Source: Chloropicon primus (Eukaryota; Chlorophyta; Chloropicophyceae; Chloropicales; Chloropicaceae). From it: DNA of 64,000 bases. Positions 33,594-41,702 of the stretch are shown here, one piece after another. A program made the translations under genes and the position numbers. The notes under the pieces are model-generated. The model saw nothing but the letters and a program-made list of their open reading frames with translations, searched no databases and was not told the origin of the DNA. Where the stretch lies: NCBI GenBank assembly GCA_023205875.1, contig CP060756.1:62001-126000 (forward strand), in the 5' to 3' direction. The first letter of the stretch is position 1. Every line of letters begins with the position of its first letter.

Positions 33594-34849
33594 TTACTCG
33601 AGGCCGAGCTCCTTGATCTTGGCCTCGATGAGGGGGACGTCCTCGGGCTCGTCCACGCCGTGGGCGCAGTGGTTCACCATGATGACCTTGATCTTGTAAC
33701 CGTGCTCGATCACCTTGAGCTGCTCGAGGTCTTCCGTGAGCTGCGACGAGCGAATGAGCGCAAGCAATTCAAGGAGAGAGAGAGAGGCGAAAAGAGTTTG
33801 TTCATGGGTCAGCCATCGTCGCAACACGATCCGGAGACAGAACCAAAAGAGGAGGCGGACGTACCATGAGCGGAGTGGCAGGAAGGCTGTTGTAAATCCT
33901 CAAAAAGTTCCTGTCGTAGCACTGGAGCCCCAAGTGAAGCAAGTAGGGCTTGTCTTGGAAGGGTTCTGGGAAGTTCTTGATCTCCCCCTTCTTGTTGTGA
34001 GGGATCACACCCCTCGAGAAGTAGATGGCATACCCCTGCTGATCCGTGATGCACTTCACTCTCTGCCTCAGCTCCACCTCGTCGTGCTTCAGGGGGGTGC
34101 AGGGGGTGCTGAAAAAGAAAGGAGACCGCCAAGTAGTCAGATCGCGCCGTCGTCGGCGTCGTAGAGAGAGGGAGAGAGAGAGAGGTCGTGAGGAGGGACG
34201 ACTCACCTGTAGACCGCGTCCGGAGAGTTCTTCAGGGTCTCCGCGACCTCGTCGATGATCTCGGGCTCGATCAAAGGCTCGTCACCTTGAATGTTCACAA
34301 CAATGTCGTAAGACTCCTTGAGCTTGGAAACCGCTTCGTTGCACCTCTCGGTCCCGTTCGGGCAGTCCACGCTGGTCATGACCACCTCGGCTCCATGCTC
34401 CTTGCACACTTTGGCGATCCTGTCGTCGTCCGTCGCGACGATCACCCTGTCGAGCTGCGTGGCCTTCTTGGCCTGCTCGTAGGTCCTCACGATCATCGGC
34501 TTGCCCAAGATGGGGGTCAGGGGCTTTCCAGGGAAGCGAGTCGACGCGTACCGTGCCGGTATCACTCCAATCTTCAATGCGAGCGAGTCAGCCGCAACAA
34601 AAGCGAGTCAGCCGCAACAAAGGCAAGACCGGACAGAAACAGCTTCAAGTGTCAGTGCACGAAAATGAGTCTCAAAGGTGTCGGTTCCCGGACCGTCACC
34701 CCGAAACCTAGCCGAGGTTTCCACTCGGTCCCCCTCTTCATTCCTTCACTTACGACTTTAGTCCTCTTCTTCTTTCCAAAGAACTTGTCCTTGAGAAAGA
34801 ATGCAGCCGTTGCCGCGGACGACACGATCGCGGTCACCACCAACTTCAT
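33594..34849 (-). CDS. kdsB: CMP-Kdo synthetase (3-deoxy-manno-octulosonate cytidylyltransferase)
   Basis: Four exons (34754-34849, 34207-34571, 33865-34108 and 33594-33740) give 283 residues in one frame. Exon 1 encodes a short hydrophobic anchor ([19 protein letters not shown] then KKKR), as in plant CKS. Exon 2 starts [18 protein letters not shown], the CTP site, and has TDDDRI and NIQGDEPLI; exon 3 has [14 protein letters not shown] and LQCYDRNFL; exon 4 ends with the family EHGYKIKV. All three introns have GT(A/G)(A/C)GT-type donors. The enzyme activates Kdo for transfer to glycans: rhamnogalacturonan II in plants and the Kdo-rich scales or thecae of prasinophyte algae. Confidence 0.93.
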
Positions 34850-35238
34850 GATGGTCTTCTCCAGATGCCTTTGCCTTTGCCTTTGTGACGTCCTCACTCG
34901 CTCGCTCGTCGTCGGTACCAAGGGATCAATCCCGTCCGCTCAAGGTCTGCGGCAGCTGCTGCTGGTTTACTTTACGATGAAGGTACGCGAGGCCAGCGCG
35001 ATCAGCACAGAGGAAGGGGAAGGGGAAGGGGAGGACAAAAGATGACAAAAGGTGGCTTGAGGATGAACTTGGGGACGAGAACATGGAGACAGGCGTGAGC
35101 TTGACAATCGGATGTAACCACGACACCGGCACGGTGGAGGTTGCGAGGAGAGGAGCCTCGCCAGGAACCGTACCAGGGCCAGGGCCACCCCAGGAACCAG
35201 GAGGGGAACAACGGCAAAGGCAGGAAGAGGAGGGGAAG
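34850..35238. other. Intergenic: kdsB promoter and NSF-like gene leader
   Basis: About 390 bases between divergent genes. The frame of the downstream gene is already open from an earlier ATG at 35083, so part of this may be coding; otherwise nothing is seen. Confidence 0.5.
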
Positions 35239-38200
35239 ATGAAGGGGAGGACGGTCCCGTGGGGGGGACGAAGGCGCCTTGGAGGGAGATCTAGCACATT
35301 CACGCGCGCGGTGTTGGTCCTGGCTTGCCTCTTGGTGGTCGTGAGCCCGGGGCAGGCCGTCGAAGGGGGGGAAGGGGAGGGGAGGGACGCGCTCAGGACT
35401 CAAGCACCGCCTCCAGCGCGAGCGTTGAAGCCTCAGAAGGCCCTCTCCGCGCCAACCCGCGTCGAAGGGACGGTGGGCGCGTGGTCGGATGAACTGGAGG
35501 TAAAATTCTCCCCGAGCAACGCGTGCAGGGTGAACTTCAAGGTGACTGGATTTGGCAACGCGAAACCGGAGGATGTCACCTTCGAACCGCCTTTCCTCGT
35601 CTTCGATGGAGACGTGGAGACCAGGACCTTCAAGGTGAAGAGCTCGGGGCTGGGATGGTACTCAGTCATTTACGAATTCGAGAGCGACCACGCGTTTCCA
35701 TTCGATGGTGTGAGGACGACGGTTCTGCAGGTCTTGGATAAGGCCCGAGTGTCCCTGGTTCAGCCAGGGAATTCCCAGCTCGTTCTGGGGTCCACCTCCC
35801 CGTTTTACAAGCTAAGCCTGACAAAGAATCTGAACGTGAAAGTGGTCCCCGTGGCCGAGGAACTCGTTTTCGAGCCTCGCGAGCTCTCGTTCTCGCGTTC
35901 GGCATCGCTGGCTCCTCAAGTCCAAGAGTTCAGGGTTCGAGTCCCAGGAACGTTGCCAGAGAAGCTTCGCGCGAGCGGGGACATTCACAAGTTCGAGGTG
36001 CCAGTGAACCTGGTGCTGCAGTGCAACGAGGGGGAGGAGGACGCGGCGTGTGATGTGGCCCGCTTGCACGAACCAGTGGAGTTTCTGTGGCAGATCTTGG
36101 ATTTGAACGAGCTCCGCGTGGAAGAGAAGATCGTTGGACCAATCACTGGCATACGCTTGCCCTTGTCGCTTAAGTTTCCTCAGGAAGCAATTGTCGAAAT
36201 TTACTCCAGGGAACTCGTGTTGAGCAAAAACAGGTTGGTGATCAGCAAGGAGGACGTAGGAGTGAACACTGAGCTCAGGGTGGTCGGGAGAAGGGGCACG
36301 AAGAGATCTTGCAGCGCAGCGGAGCCTTGCGTCATTCAGTATGCCGTGAAAGATGTCCAGGGTAGACTCAGCCCCAACTTTGCTCAGGGGGCAACGACAA
36401 ATTCCGGTTTTCACGGAAGCACGATCGTCCACGTCGTCGACAAACTCGAGCTGGACACGCCCAATTCCACCGTGGCCTTTGTGAATCAAACCATCGACTT
36501 GACCTTCACGTGGCGCACTGCTGTCCCTAGCGACATGGCACATCATCAGCTGGAGAACGTGGACCGCGCAAAAGGAATCGCAGGGGGAGAGAGCCTTTTC
36601 GAGATTCATTGCCTGGCCTCACCGGACGTCATGGTCGAGCCAAGCGTCCTGGTGGTCTCTGACTTGAGTCAAACGCTTGGTTTCAACATCACGCCGACGA
36701 GAGAAGGGAAGTTCGAGGTCAAGTTCAACTTGGGGGAGGGACGGTTCCAGAACCTCGTTGAGTTCAAGCCAGAACCCGTGGTGTCGATCATCGTGTACGA
36801 CTCCTTCCACGCCGAGGACTTCTCATTCGAAACAAAATACGGTTTAGGAGGGTTGGACACCGAGCTCAACATGATCCTGAGAAGGGCTTTATTCTCGCGC
36901 ATGGCCACGAAGGAGACAGCGGAGGCCCTTGGGGTTAAGCCTGTCAAGGTAAGCCAGCAACGCTTCATCACCTTTCCTTCTGTTCGTTTTTCTTGGGAAC
37001 TTATCTAATTGTGCATTTCCACTCGCTTGTGTTGCATCTTCCGGAAACCTGCAGGGCATCCTGCTTTTCGGCCCGCCGGGCTGCGGAAAGACGACGGTGG
37101 CGAGGCAGATAGGAAGAATGCTCTTGACACAGGAACCCAAGGTGGTCAATGGTCCAGAAATAATCAGCAAATACCTCGGCGAAAGCGAGAACCAAGTTCG
37201 TTCCCTGTTCGCTGACGCTGAACTCGATCAGAATGAGCGAAACGTTCACCTCATCGTCTTTGATGAGATTGATGCTCTCGTGAAGCCGCGCGGCCGGGGT
37301 CAAGGAGAAGCGGCGGATCAAGTGTACGACGGAATAGTCAATACCATCTTGAGCAAAATGGATGGTATCCATAGACTGGACAACGTCCTCGTCGTGGGCA
37401 CGACCAACCGGAGGGATCTTATCGACCCAGCTCTGCTGAGACCGGGTCGGTTCGACGTTCAGGTGAACATCAAAATCCCTGATGAAGAGGGAAGGCTTCA
37501 GATCTTCCGCATCCACACGAAGAGGATGTTCACGTCGAACTTGGTCAGCAAGGACGTGGATTTGGTGAAGCTGGCCAAAATGGCACGAGCCTTCACGGGG
37601 GCGGAGATCGAAGGCGTCGTGAAATCAGCTGCCTCTTTGGCGGTGGAAGACGCTTTCAAAGCCAGTGATTCCAGTGCCACGACAATCGATCGAAACCGAA
37701 TTCAGCTGACTCAGGAGCACTTCGAGAAGGCGCTCAAAGACATCGAGCCCGCGAACATAGACTCCAAGGATGCTCTGGAGCAGCTGTACAGCGGCGATCT
37801 GTTCAAGTTTTCTCCAGAAATGGTTGAAGCGATTTCTCGATTCTCTCAGTCCCTTGAGTACGTCTGCGCCGACTCGGGTGGGGATGAGTCCGAGAGAAGT
37901 CACAAGGCTATCAGCATCCTCGTGCATGGGGCACCGGGGACTGGGAAAACGTCTTTCGTCTCCAGCATTCTGAGGGACAAGTACATCGACAACATCGCAA
38001 TGCTGGAAGTCCTGTCCGCGGAACTCCTCCTTCAAGAAAGCAAGAGCTCCGTGGAGCGGAAGATTCGGATCTTTGGAGATGCGTTTCGGTCCATCCTGTC
38101 CAACAAGAGCGGGGTCGGTGTCCTTGTCTTGGACGACTTGGAGGGGATCATTGAGCACGTCGACACGCAAGCCGGTTCGTACATCAATTCTAACATCTTT

Positions 38201-38590
38201 TCCCAACTCAGGATACTGATGCGGAGCAAGATGCACAGCGACGTCATCATCGTGGCGACCGCGTCGACGCAATCGATCATGAAGTTCGACCAGCTCCTCG
38301 ACTTGTTCGACGTGGAGATCGAGTTGCCCCTGGTGCAGTCCAGAGCTGAGATCAAGACGCTCCTGGCTTTGGCAGACATGAGCTCGCAGACGGACTATTC
38401 CGCAATCGAGGACTTCCTCCCTCTCCCCATCAAGAGGGTGATCAAGTTCCTGGACCTGGAGGCTTCTGGCAACGGGGACCTCCTCCCTTCCGCCGGACTA
38501 GCGCCTTCCCGTTACGGCGAGGAGGCCGACATCGGGATGGTCGATGTCATCGCCAACAACAACACGATGCTGAAAATATTCATGATCTAA
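35239..38590 (+). CDS. NSF-type double AAA+ ATPase with secretory-type beta-sandwich N-region
   Basis: Exons 35239-36948 and 37055-38590 (phase 0, donor GTAAGC, acceptor CTGCAG) give 1081 residues. The C-terminal half is NSF-like: SFETKYGLGGLDTELN, Walker A GPPGCGKT (576-583), Walker B LIVFDEIDA, NRRDLIDPALLRPGRFD and FTGAEIEGVVKSA in D1, then D2 with GAPGTGKT (about 861) and VLVLDDLEGII. Before it lies no recognisable NSF N domain. Instead, an Arg-rich start, a hydrophobic stretch (TRAVLVLACLLVVVSPGQA) and about 500 residues of beta-strand-rich sequence occur, with three similar motifs (VTFEPPFLVF, LVFEPRELSF, VMVEPSVLVV) and Asn-X-Ser/Thr sites. Exon 1 runs from leader into D1 without a stop. 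An upstream ATG at 35083 is possible. Confidence 0.85.
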
Positions 38591-38756
38591 AAGCAGCAGC
38601 AATGCGCATTGCTCTTTCATCCAATTCATAACCATAATCAATCCCATGCTGTATCTATAAAAACTGTAAGTCATCCACCAGTAGCACTAGTGCTTCGAGT
38701 TCCATCGCCATCCGCCTCCATCTCATCGCGGACATCTGAGGACGAGGAGTTTCACG

Positions 38757-38936
38757 ATGGACAAAATGATGGAGGTGGAGGTCGAGGCAACGAACGGGTC
38801 GAGTTACCCACACGGACTCCTGGAATCGGCGGACGTGGAGGTACGTGGGATCGCCTCAATCTACTGCGCACTTGTCCTTTCGCGCGATCTCCTCCGTCCC
38901 TTCCCTTGAAGGACGACACGCGCGCGCGCGCGCGCA

Positions 38937-38971
<35 letters not shown>

Positions 38972-40309
38972 GACTCAGAGATCGCGTTTCATGAGCGTGT
39001 TGTGTGTTTGTTTGTGTCTGACGAGTTTTTCTCTCGACTGTTCCCGCAGACTATCGTCGCCCAGTACACGGGCCACGCCCTGCTTCAGCGGCTGGTGTTC
39101 GTGGCGAAGAAGGCTGCCGAGAAGAAGGATGAGACGCTGGAGCTCGAGGCTTTGAAGGTTGCCTGCGATGAGTCGAAGAAGGGGGAGCACACGTCCCTTC
39201 ACAAGGAAGTGACGGAGCTGATGCGTGGCAGGTGCGGTCCGGAGTACGACTGCGACGCGGCCTGGGTGGATCAGGTCGACAGGCGCACCGCGCAGAAGCA
39301 GGACAAGTTGGAGTCGGAGCTGAATGGTTACAAGGCGAACCTGATCAAGGAGTCGATCAGGATGGGTCACACCTTCTTGGGGGAGTTCTTTTACGAGAAG
39401 GGCGACCTCAACGCGGCCCTTAAGTGCTACATCAGGACCAGAGACTATTGCACGACGAGCAAGCACGTTGTGACCATGTGTCTTAACGTGATCAAGGTTT
39501 CGCTCGAGTTGGAGAACTACCTTCACGTTCTGAACTATGTGCAAAAGGGGGAGCAAAACCCGGGTGTCCAGCAGGATGCGAAGACCATGGATAAGCTCAA
39601 GTGCGCCGCGGGCCTGGCGAACTTGGCGAACGGGAAGTACAAGATTGCTGCCAGAAACTTCTTGGAAGTGAGCGCGGAGTTAGACAACAACTACTCGGAC
39701 GTGATCGCTCCTCAGGACGTCGCGACCTACGGAGCCTTCTGCGCGCTTGCGTCCTTCGACAGGTCTGAGCTGAAGCAGAAGCTGATCGACAGCGTCTCGT
39801 TCCGAAACTTGCTGGAGCTCGTGCCGGAGGTCAGGGAGGTGGTGTACGACTTTTACGCCAGCAGGTACGCCTCGTGTCTGAAAATGCTGACGGGTCTGAA
39901 GAAGTACCTGGAGTACGACATCTACTTGCACAAGCACATCGAGGAGCTTGGGAACCAGATCAGGGAGAAGGCCATCGTCCAGTACACGATTCCGTTCACC
40001 TCGGTAGTGCTGCAGAACATGGCCACCGCTTTCAACGTGGATGTGGACTCCCTGGAGAAGGAAATTGCTGATCTGATTGCTAACGGGCAGATCCACGCCA
40101 AGGTGGACAGCCACAACAAAATTCTGTACTCCCGCGGCACGGACCAGAGGGACACCACCTTCGAGCGGGTGAAGAAGACGGGAAGCGATTACCAGAGGGA
40201 CTCGGAGCACGTCCTCCTAAGGGCGAGACTGCTGGAGTACCAGTTAGTGCAGACGTCCGGAAGCTCGAAGGCCGCTGCAGCTATGTCGCTGGAACTAGAC
40301 GAAAAGTGA
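38757..40309 (+). CDS. CSN1: COP9 signalosome subunit 1
   Basis: Exons 38757-38840 and 39050-40309 give 447 residues. The protein follows plant CSN1/FUS6 nearly throughout: LESADVE then YTGHALLQRLVFVAKKA, AWVDQVDRRTAQKQDKLESEL, IRTRDYCTTSKHV, VIAPQDVATYGAFCALASFDRSELKQK and RIDSHNKILY-like HAKVDSHNKILYSRG. TPR-like helices lead into a PCI domain. CSN1 helps the signalosome remove NEDD8 from cullins, which links it to SCF ligases. The proteasome paralogue RPN7 is excluded by the Ala-Ser-Phe-Asp-Arg-Ser-Glu-Leu-Lys stretch. The intron starts GTACGT and ends CCGCAG and carries (CG)n(CA)n(GA)n. Confidence 0.95.
38921..38971 (+). repeat. (GC)n(CA)n(GA)n microsatellite in CSN1 intron
   Basis: Composite repeat in the intron; its orientation relative to the gene is opposite to the composites in the CDPK intron and the gene at 18124-19019. 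Confidence 0.85.
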
Positions 40310-40409: not shown

Positions 40410-41702
40410 TCACGCGGGGAGTTTCGTCGGATCGATGATCAGATGTCGGATATTGTGGCGCTTCCAAGTGTAAGTGACGTGGACAAGCTCGTCGTCGGAT
40501 TGAATGATCGACGGGTAGCTGAATTCGACGTTCCTCTTTGAGCTCTCCAGCGTCGTGACCTCTTGCCACGAATCGCCGTCGTCTTGCGAAACGGCAAGGG
40601 AAATGATCTGCCTTCCAGCAAAACCACCCTTCTTGAAGGAGTGGTTGTAGATCAAAACAACCCTTCCGTCCTTGAGCTTCACGGCATCCAGGCCAGAGTT
40701 GGGGCAGGGGATCGTCGTGAGCTGGGGTTTACCGAACTCCCTTCCCGTGCTGTCCGACTTGGCACTGACCATGTAGGTCGATCTGGACCTCGCAACCATT
40801 CTCACCCTCTCCGAATCATCGATCCAAACCGACGGCTGTATGATGCGTCCGTTGAATTCTATGGGCCCCCACGCTTTCCAAGTCTTCCCCCCATCAGTCG
40901 ACTCCTCCATCATGCAGCTCCAGACTCGGTTCCTCTTCTCCCTCGAGCTCGGCGCGATGATGGTGCCGTCCGAGAGCTGGATGGGCTTGTTCTTCGCGGG
41001 GCCTATGATGCCTGCTCCCAGGTGCTCCGGCTCCGACCAAGTCACCCCCTCGTCCAAACTCCTCTTGACGTACCCCTTCCAAGTCTGAGGGTTCCTCCCC
41101 GTCTTGTAGAAGAGCAAGACTTCGTTCCCCTTGGTCCTGAACAGCACGGGATTCCAGGTCGGCACGCCGTTCGTTGGCTTGACGAGCTCGACGGGCTCCG
41201 TCCAGTTGCTCTGGTAATCCTCGAGCCTGGACAGGAATATCCCAACATCGTCCTTTCCCTCGAACTTCCCCGCAAACCACGCGGCCAGGAGAGCCCCGCC
41301 CTCGACCTCCACAATGGTGGAAGCGTGATGCGATGGTTTCGGCCGCTTCCTCCTGTCGGGCATCACGAACTTCCTGGCCACGATGGACTCGTGGAGATCG
41401 ATCTCCTCGCCGTGGTGGACACCTGTGGGAACACCTGCCTTTGCCTCCTCCTCGGAGGTGGTCACCTTGTGGGACTCTCCTTGCCAGCCAATCAGGTTGA
41501 GGTCGCTCTTGTTGTTCTTGTGGGTCGCTCTAGCCGCCCTTGCGACGTCACTCGCGACGAGGAGGAGAACGACGAGGAGGGAGACCCAAAGACTCGCATC
41601 TTGCGCACCCCCTTGCCTTCTCCGTCCCCCTGCTTGGACCATCCTACCACCGCAGCCTGCGACGGCGAGGGGATCTGATGAATCAAGATTGTCGATCATC
41701 AT
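40410..41702 (-). CDS. Secreted sialidase/BNR-repeat-like protein
   Basis: 430 residues, starting ATGATG. A hydrophobic stretch (SLWVSLLVVLLLVASDVARA, about 37-56) would be a signal peptide, especially if translation starts at Met21 (41642). The rest is a beta-propeller of the predicted neuraminidase type (COG4692-like/BNR_2): Asp-box motifs SLDEGVTWSEP, STDGGKTWKAW and SQDDGDSWQEV, plus SHHASTIVEVEGGALLAAWFAG and IIAPSSREK. Bacterial relatives act on glycan-linked sialic or related nonulosonic acids; substrate here is unknown. No intron. A Kdo-activating enzyme is encoded 6 kb away, which could be coincidence. Confidence 0.82.
   Translation of the reverse strand: MMIDNLDSSDPLAVAGCGGRMVQAGGRRRQGGAQDASLWVSLLVVLLLVASDVARAARATHKNNKSDLNLIGWQGESHKVTTSEEEAKAGVPTGVHHGEEIDLHESIVARKFVMPDRRKRPKPSHHASTIVEVEGGALLAAWFAGKFEGKDDVGIFLSRLEDYQSNWTEPVELVKPTNGVPTWNPVLFRTKGNEVLLFYKTGRNPQTWKGYVKRSLDEGVTWSEPEHLGAGIIGPAKNKPIQLSDGTIIAPSSREKRNRVWSCMMEESTDGGKTWKAWGPIEFNGRIIQPSVWIDDSERVRMVARSRSTYMVSAKSDSTGREFGKPQLTTIPCPNSGLDAVKLKDGRVVLIYNHSFKKGGFAGRQIISLAVSQDDGDSWQEVTTLESSKRNVEFSYPSIIQSDDELVHVTYTWKRHNIRHLIIDPTKLPA

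Follow-up and report, generated by a model that had tools for sequence, protein, structure and literature searches.

What does an NSF-type AAA+ ATPase do behind a secretory-type leader, and on which side of the membrane does it act? The question is raised by a single gene of Chloropicon primus RCC138, a marine green alga whose haploid genome of 17,584,162 bases is listed with 20 chromosomes and 0.54 introns per gene (PMC12301720 Table 1). The window, that is the whole stretch of 64,000 nucleotides that we analysed, corresponds to C3:62001-126000 of the RCC138 assembly. The gene comprises two exons and encodes an NSF-type motor of 1,081 residues, in which the secretory-type leader is followed by an N-region of about 450 residues and then by the ATPase domains D1 and D2. 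Both the gene and this domain order are well supported.

35239..36948, plus strand: exon 1, with the leader, the N-region and the first 50 residues of D1 (residues 1-570); open frame, codon score
36949..37054, plus strand: intron of 106 bases, GT-AG
37055..38590, plus strand: exon 2, with the remainder of D1, the whole of D2 (residues 571-1081) and the stop

The preliminary description had placed the gene at 35239-38590, and this placement holds, with the start codon (ATG) at 35239 and the stop codon at 38588-38590. From this ATG the exon 1 frame runs for 570 codons without a stop up to 36948, and the spliced gene contains no stop in all of its 1,081 codons. The intron, which is required by an in-frame stop at 37006-37008, is the only one that we found; it sits in D1 just upstream of Walker A, between a donor AAG/GTAAGC at 36949 and an acceptor CTGCAG/GGC at 37054. 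The spliced junction, GVKPVK/GILLFGPPGCGKT, aligns without gaps with the alga's own NSF (see below). Because the exon 1 frame stays open to 36948 and the intron comes only afterwards, the N-region/D1 junction (around 36799) lies inside exon 1. Leader, N-region and the start of D1 thus share one exon with neither a stop nor a splice site across the junction, as had been proposed from the first inspection.

Codon statistics were obtained from 22 training frames (38 loci were offered, 12 were skipped because they showed no family motif, and the remainder were repeats), each being the longest frame over the locus centre with a family motif; one or another of them may have been chosen wrongly. The all-feature score of every exon segment is positive and the best of six frames: +0.022 (weak) for the leader, +0.199, +0.119, +0.118 and +0.150 for the four segments of the N-region, +0.163 for the first part of D1, +0.128 for the rest of D1, and +0.272 for D2. 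The score remains positive and best of six frames across the N-region/D1 junction, and the intron scores -0.503. When only synonymous choice is scored, the values lie near zero (-0.032 to +0.101), indicating that the coding signal is largely one of amino-acid make-up. The open frame and the positive codon score across the junction argue against two separate genes, a reading that we rejected. A further in-frame ATG lies at 35083; the 156 bases from there to our start (35083-35238) score -0.013, again best of six frames, and since this is the lowest value of all non-intron segments, we favour 35239 as the start.

The ATPase part carries the following landmarks, all on the plus strand:

36799..36948, plus strand: start of D1 (residues 521-570), NSF-type linker plus GLGGLD...GVKPVK; aligned with C. 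primus NSF
37070..37093, plus strand: D1 Walker A, GPPGCGKT; aligned with NSF
37169..37186, plus strand: D1 pore loop 1, KYLGES; aligned with NSF
37259..37276, plus strand: D1 Walker B, FDEIDA; aligned with NSF
37433..37453, plus strand: D1 arginine-finger segment, LLRPGRF; aligned with NSF
37928..37951, plus strand: D2 Walker A, GAPGTGKT; aligned with NSF
38423..38446, plus strand: D2 sensor-2 segment, LPIKRVIK, with the NSF-type lysine; aligned with NSF

The motif strings came from the protein itself, so that a scan for them merely locates each one; it is the alignment that shows the correspondence with NSF. The Walker A and B motifs, both sensors, pore loop 1 and the arginine-finger segment of D1 all align with C. 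primus NSF. The start of D1 is matched weakly by NSF in the PDB, from residue 525 on (E 0.044), and by C. primus NSF in tblastn (E 0.007). In D2, LPIKRVIK is aligned to LPVKKLLL of C. primus NSF and keeps the sensor-2 lysine, which is described as particular to the D2 of NSF (PMC5070193 section 9). Among solved structures, exon 2 matches Sec18 best (E 1.6e-89, 304.5 bits), followed by NSF (1.4e-81 to 1.8e-80) and CDC48 (9.1e-80); animal NSF (278 bits) scores only slightly above CDC48/p97 (up to 272), and Sec18 alone stands clear. We take the species behind these PDB entries to be yeast and hamster.

In line with these matches, a tree of nine rows groups the window's D1-D2 with Sec18, animal NSF and C. 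primus NSF at a support of 100/100, apart from the archaeal and C. primus CDC48 proteins, and a tree of D1 only returns the same NSF/Sec18 set, again at 100/100. D1 and D2 are indeed NSF-like in wording and order, as the preliminary description had it. Because the tree covers nine rows (no torsin among them) and exon 2 only (D1 from Walker A on, plus D2), and four of its six inner branches are open, it leaves the duplication undated. The window protein sits on a branch of 1.25, compared with 0.38-0.41 for the other NSFs. Its D1 is 57% identical to that of C. primus NSF, 59% to Sec18 and 59% to animal NSF, whereas those three share 70-72% with one another; its D2 is 26%, 29% and 24% identical to the same three, which mutually share 41-51%, and taken alone is about as similar to the equivalent part of C. 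primus CDC48 (28%) as to NSF. The near-equal distance to algal, yeast and animal NSF would fit either an old duplication or fast evolution.

A search for a canonical NSF elsewhere in the genome, suggested at the outset, found one at C11:337517-338893, which matches animal NSF structures over residues 23-723 (E 3e-200). The window gene is the second NSF-type gene of C. primus. There is no third among the 46 candidates scored from the alga's own genome, where the match drops from 303.7 to 144.9 bits after these two. Doubled NSF genes are known already, two being marked for Leishmania/Trypanosoma (PMC5070193 Table 1). With a separate canonical NSF present, the window copy would be free for another task.

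What precedes D1 cannot be recognised as the SNAP-binding N domain of NSF, and here too the first impression holds. Pfam CDC48_N gives no match in the N-region up to E 10, with a profile for which even the canonical C. primus NSF stays below the cut-off (27.1 vs 35.1 bits). NSF/Sec18 structures in the PDB align from residue 525 or 526 onwards, with no match upstream, and an alignment of the N-region with the N domain of C. primus NSF scores 32, when the shuffle mean is 33.7 and 309 of 500 shuffles score as high. Having found no signal in profile, structure-match or alignment tests, we rejected a diverged NSF N domain hidden in this region.

Upon profile search, no Pfam or NCBIfam family exceeds its cut-off in the N-region; the sole Pfam family up to E 10 is fn3_6 (residues 461-503, E 0.0039, 17.8 bits, cut-off 26.4), and NCBIfam yields no match up to E 1. 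By eye, the region divides into four segments of about 100-120 residues each with a common V.FEP..L.F...F.V pattern:

35458..35748, plus strand: repeat a, predicted beta-sandwich; model of residues 71-170, Foldseek
35755..36108, plus strand: repeat b, which holds Cys 262 and 271; resembles repeat a weakly, z 1.89
36109..36444, plus strand: segment c, which holds Cys 358 and 364; position set by spacing, without a significant match to any other repeat
36445..36804, plus strand: repeat d, running straight into D1; sub-threshold fn3_6, weak match to repeat a, z 1.87

When the six pairs were compared against 300 shuffles, a-b and a-d reached z values of about 1.9 (20 and 17 of the 300 shuffles score as high), and the remaining four pairs gave no similarity signal. 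A model of repeat a, built with the other three segments as alignment, has seven strands (mean pLDDT 63.3, pTM 0.55). Foldseek returned 657 matches to it at E up to 10, headed by PapD-like pilus chaperones (E 0.0092), with none at 0.001 or better; lower ranks include cystinosin (10), a ciliary central-pair protein (13), a subtilase (36) and an MSP-domain protein (37). Folding the whole of exon 1 from one sequence gave a mean pLDDT of 33.5 and no usable structure. From one model of modest confidence and a sub-threshold FN3 profile match, we regard repeat a, with moderate confidence, as a predicted Ig-like/PapD-like beta-sandwich; repeats d and b may share this fold, with less confidence than for a, and for segment c it is unproven. 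The three similar beta-sandwich motifs of the preliminary description thus find weak support, in the a-b and a-d similarities and the seven strands of repeat a, but none in the other four pairs; likewise, the profile and structure searches that it had proposed produced the fn3_6 match and a modest fold for repeat a, but nothing past either threshold.

The predicted location of the motor rests on its leader:

35239..35358, plus strand: leader, residues 1-40; candidate cleavage after residue 40
35311..35343, plus strand: hydrophobic core of the leader, residues 25-35

Ahead of the core lie 24 arginine-rich residues with no acidic one among them, giving the N-side a net charge of +7; residues 24-35 read AVLVLACLLVVV and are followed by SPGQA/VEG. 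Residue 40 is our pick among six candidate -1 positions for cleavage. In a comparison of hydropathy only, the 11-residue mean of the core peaks at 3.68, next to 2.31, 2.76, 3.03 and 3.10 for the leaders of four ER proteins from the same genome (calreticulin-like, BiP-like, Grp170-like and calnexin-like, respectively) and 0.84-1.56 for five non-ER controls, including mitochondrial and plastid HSP70-type leaders (1.47 and 0.84); all of these protein names are readings of family hits, leaders and endings. None of 5,000 shuffles of the first 50 residues reaches the hydrophobicity of the leader, which is therefore present beyond chance and resembles the leaders of the alga's ER chaperones. Such a start occurs in none of the 62 ORFs in the window when these are counted from their first ATGs, a count in which the studied gene begins at 35083 and hence goes unscored.

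Beyond the leader, the protein has no second strongly hydrophobic segment (the next best 19-residue window reaches 1.24 vs 2.03). By the positive-inside rule, an arginine-rich N-side puts the remainder of a protein in the lumen, for a cleaved signal and for an uncleaved anchor alike. These two considerations make the lumen the likeliest predicted place for the N-region and the ATPase. The preliminary description had weighed an ATPase that is luminal if the leader is cleaved against a membrane-tethered unfoldase with an ectodomain; its luminal branch is the one favoured here, but the tethered form would be luminal as well and is no cytosolic alternative. The mature N-region contains six cysteines, four of them in two close pairs, which fit an oxidising lumen, and N-glycosylation sequons are unenriched (3 vs 2.3 expected). 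The C-terminus, ANNNTMLKIFMI, is without an HDEL-type ER retrieval signal, in contrast to the BiP-, calreticulin- and Grp170-like proteins of C. primus, which end in KEEL, HDEL and HEEL; retention would then depend on an anchor or a partner, unless the protein resides at a later station of the pathway. The HSP70-type proteins with ER-type leaders and KEEL or HEEL endings that we read as BiP and Grp170 suggest that ATP is available in the ER lumen.

We lean, by a modest degree, towards a diverged NSF paralogue that was moved to the secretory pathway and acts there as a remodelling motor within the lumen of the ER or Golgi, binding its substrates through beta-sandwich arms. NSF grips its complex via the N domains and pulls chains through D1, while D2 mainly holds the hexamer together. 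In the window protein, a cleavable signal sequence would take the chain into the ER, and the D1-D2 rings would assemble into an NSF-like hexamer. Since the NSF N domain is replaced, the beta-sandwich repeats would be the natural substrate-binding parts, six arms catching luminal or membrane-attached substrates. D1, with its Walker motifs, pore loop and own arginine fingers, would pull these apart with ATP, and D2 would mainly hold the hexamer together, so that the whole may serve as an ATP-driven remodeller of luminal protein complexes. For this luminal remodeller speak the continuous frame, the NSF clade at 100/100, the D1 motifs, the sensor-2 lysine, the existence of a canonical NSF, the leader core and the cysteine pairs. 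Against it stand the lack of an HDEL-type ending, the unenriched sequons, the strongly diverged D2, the small NSF-over-CDC48 structure lead, and the failure to find an N-region relative in viral and prokaryote collections or elsewhere in the C. primus genome.

The missing retrieval ending would be explained if the leader stayed uncleaved and tethered the luminal motor to the ER or nuclear-envelope membrane, a form that differs from the one we prefer only in its tethering. Its core is more hydrophobic than all four ER-protein leaders (3.68 vs at most 3.10) and follows a positively charged N-side, as an anchor might; by contrast, a 12-residue hydrophobic run before SPG and a small-residue site at 40 (among six candidates) are typical of cleaved signals and short for an anchor, and we consider the tethered form unlikely, if still worth keeping in mind. 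Somewhat less probable is an organelle-targeted motor with a bipartite leader of the mitochondrial intermembrane-space or thylakoid type. The acid-free stretch of net charge +7 and the absence of an ER retrieval ending would suit such targeting, yet only 24 residues precede the 11-residue core, which is short for a bipartite leader, and the leaders that we assign to mitochondrial and plastid HSP70 bear little resemblance to this one (maxima 1.47 and 0.84). Improbable, in our judgement, is a cytosolic motor with a new N-region, made by skipping or burying the leader through a start at 35083, a later methionine or another transcript start: the ATG at 35083 would put 76 residues before the core, and 35083-35238 is best in this frame, though near zero; yet its score falls under that of every later exon segment, and the hydrophobic core stays in the protein even from 35083. 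Finally, a recent fusion or decaying copy without a function of its own, to which the long branch (1.25 vs 0.38-0.41) and diverged D2 might point, is very improbable for a gene whose 1,081 codons are free of stops, whose D1 motifs align with NSF and whose all-feature score is positive in every exon segment.

How does the proposed luminal remodeller compare with known systems? With NSF/Sec18 the protein shares the D1-D2 order, the clade (100/100), the D1 motifs and the D2 sensor-2 lysine. It differs in that the N domain is not found, its place being taken by a secretory leader and, after it, likely beta-sandwich repeats that span about 450 residues, in that its D2 is strongly diverged, and in that a canonical NSF exists besides. 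NSF/Sec18 is cytosolic, whereas the secretory-type leader argues against the cytosol for the window protein.

Torsins, according to a review the sole AAA+ residents of the nuclear envelope/ER network (PMC7175109), resemble the window protein as AAA+ proteins of the ER lumen, a placement here predicted from the leader. Their relatives are the Clp/Hsp100 proteins, and they depend on LAP1/LULL1 for a donated arginine (PMC7175109); by contrast, the window protein is NSF-type and double-ring, with an arginine-finger segment of its own. Pfam Torsin is absent among the matches listed for exon 2 (25 of 56 families). A torsin-like AAA+ gene does occur in the alga, at G000:C11:688355-688567 (L036, minus strand ORF 679-2514; Pfam Torsin E 4.6e-12, 46.6 bits, cut-off 27), with a hydrophobic segment of hydropathy 2.54 just upstream of its AAA+ part. 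This suggests that luminal AAA+ proteins may be at home in C. primus.

The SELMA sCdc48 variants of complex plastids carry signal peptides and offer a precedent for a Cdc48-family double-ring ATPase sent away from the cytosol. They are Cdc48-type and sit in a periplastidial compartment, which a primary-plastid green alga does not have. We rejected a SELMA-type Cdc48 as the wrong clade, the window protein being separated at 100/100 from archaeal CDC48 and from the CDC48 of C. primus. Targeting of complex-plastid Cdc48 variants to the periplastidial compartment is described in PMC5070193, which also describes eight ancestral Cdc48-family members and names NVL and Yta7 as members with novel N-domains. 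The window protein likewise joins a novel N-domain to a Cdc48-family ATPase; unlike it, NVL and Yta7 are not NSF-derived, and the passages of that source on the two mention no secretory leader.

In the search for relatives of the N-region, one stretch of viral_contigs and 18 of genome_contigs matched the pattern and none was confirmed; within the C. primus genome the two matches are the N-region itself and the D1 edge of NSF, with no other relative. For exon 2, none of 17 candidates was confirmed in viral_contigs and two of 34 in genome_contigs. One of the two (L031) was rejected as an ordinary archaeal CDC48, and the other (L032) matches over 16 residues, at Walker A. A two-row NSF alignment run against viral_contigs left two confirmed of 284 (L044 and L045, 33% over 203 residues), which we judged, from the match rows alone, to be generic AAA. 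Because these collections by description hold viral, bacterial and archaeal contigs, absence from them says little about algae. Among the literature matches listed, most subscription papers being outside the scope, none showed an NSF that carries a secretory leader or has an N-region of beta-sandwich type.

What we rate as new is an NSF-derived protein that apparently fails the N-domain feature on which known NSF function rests. That it represents an undescribed AAA+ class, an ER/Golgi-luminal, NSF-derived double-ring unfoldase, self-sufficient in ATP hydrolysis and with tandem beta-sandwich arms replacing the SNAP-binding domain, we put at slightly under an even chance. If true, an NSF-type motor that works in the lumen and brings its own arginine fingers adds a second kind of AAA+ protein to the ER/nuclear envelope; the NSF core can be re-aimed by an N-domain swap; and disassembly of the NSF type has found a new use across the membrane, which makes one ask what complexes in the lumen have to be taken apart with ATP. 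Since the gene is one clean locus and the algal genome is small and finished, this is directly testable.

The neighbouring genes do not point to a pathway. Upstream, a cytidylyltransferase frame on the minus strand (34203-34577; CTP_transf_3, E 7e-45), presumably a CMP-KDO synthetase by its looks, seems by eye to continue in another exon at 33802-34206. Downstream lies COP9 signalosome subunit 1 (38609-40309; RPN7, PCI and sub-cut-off CSN1_C matches), whose conserved part is preceded by simple GC/AC/AG repeats (about 38918-38972). It is followed on the minus strand by a BNR-repeat (sialidase-like) protein (40410-41702; BNR_2, E 2.6e-77), which by eye also starts with a hydrophobic leader.
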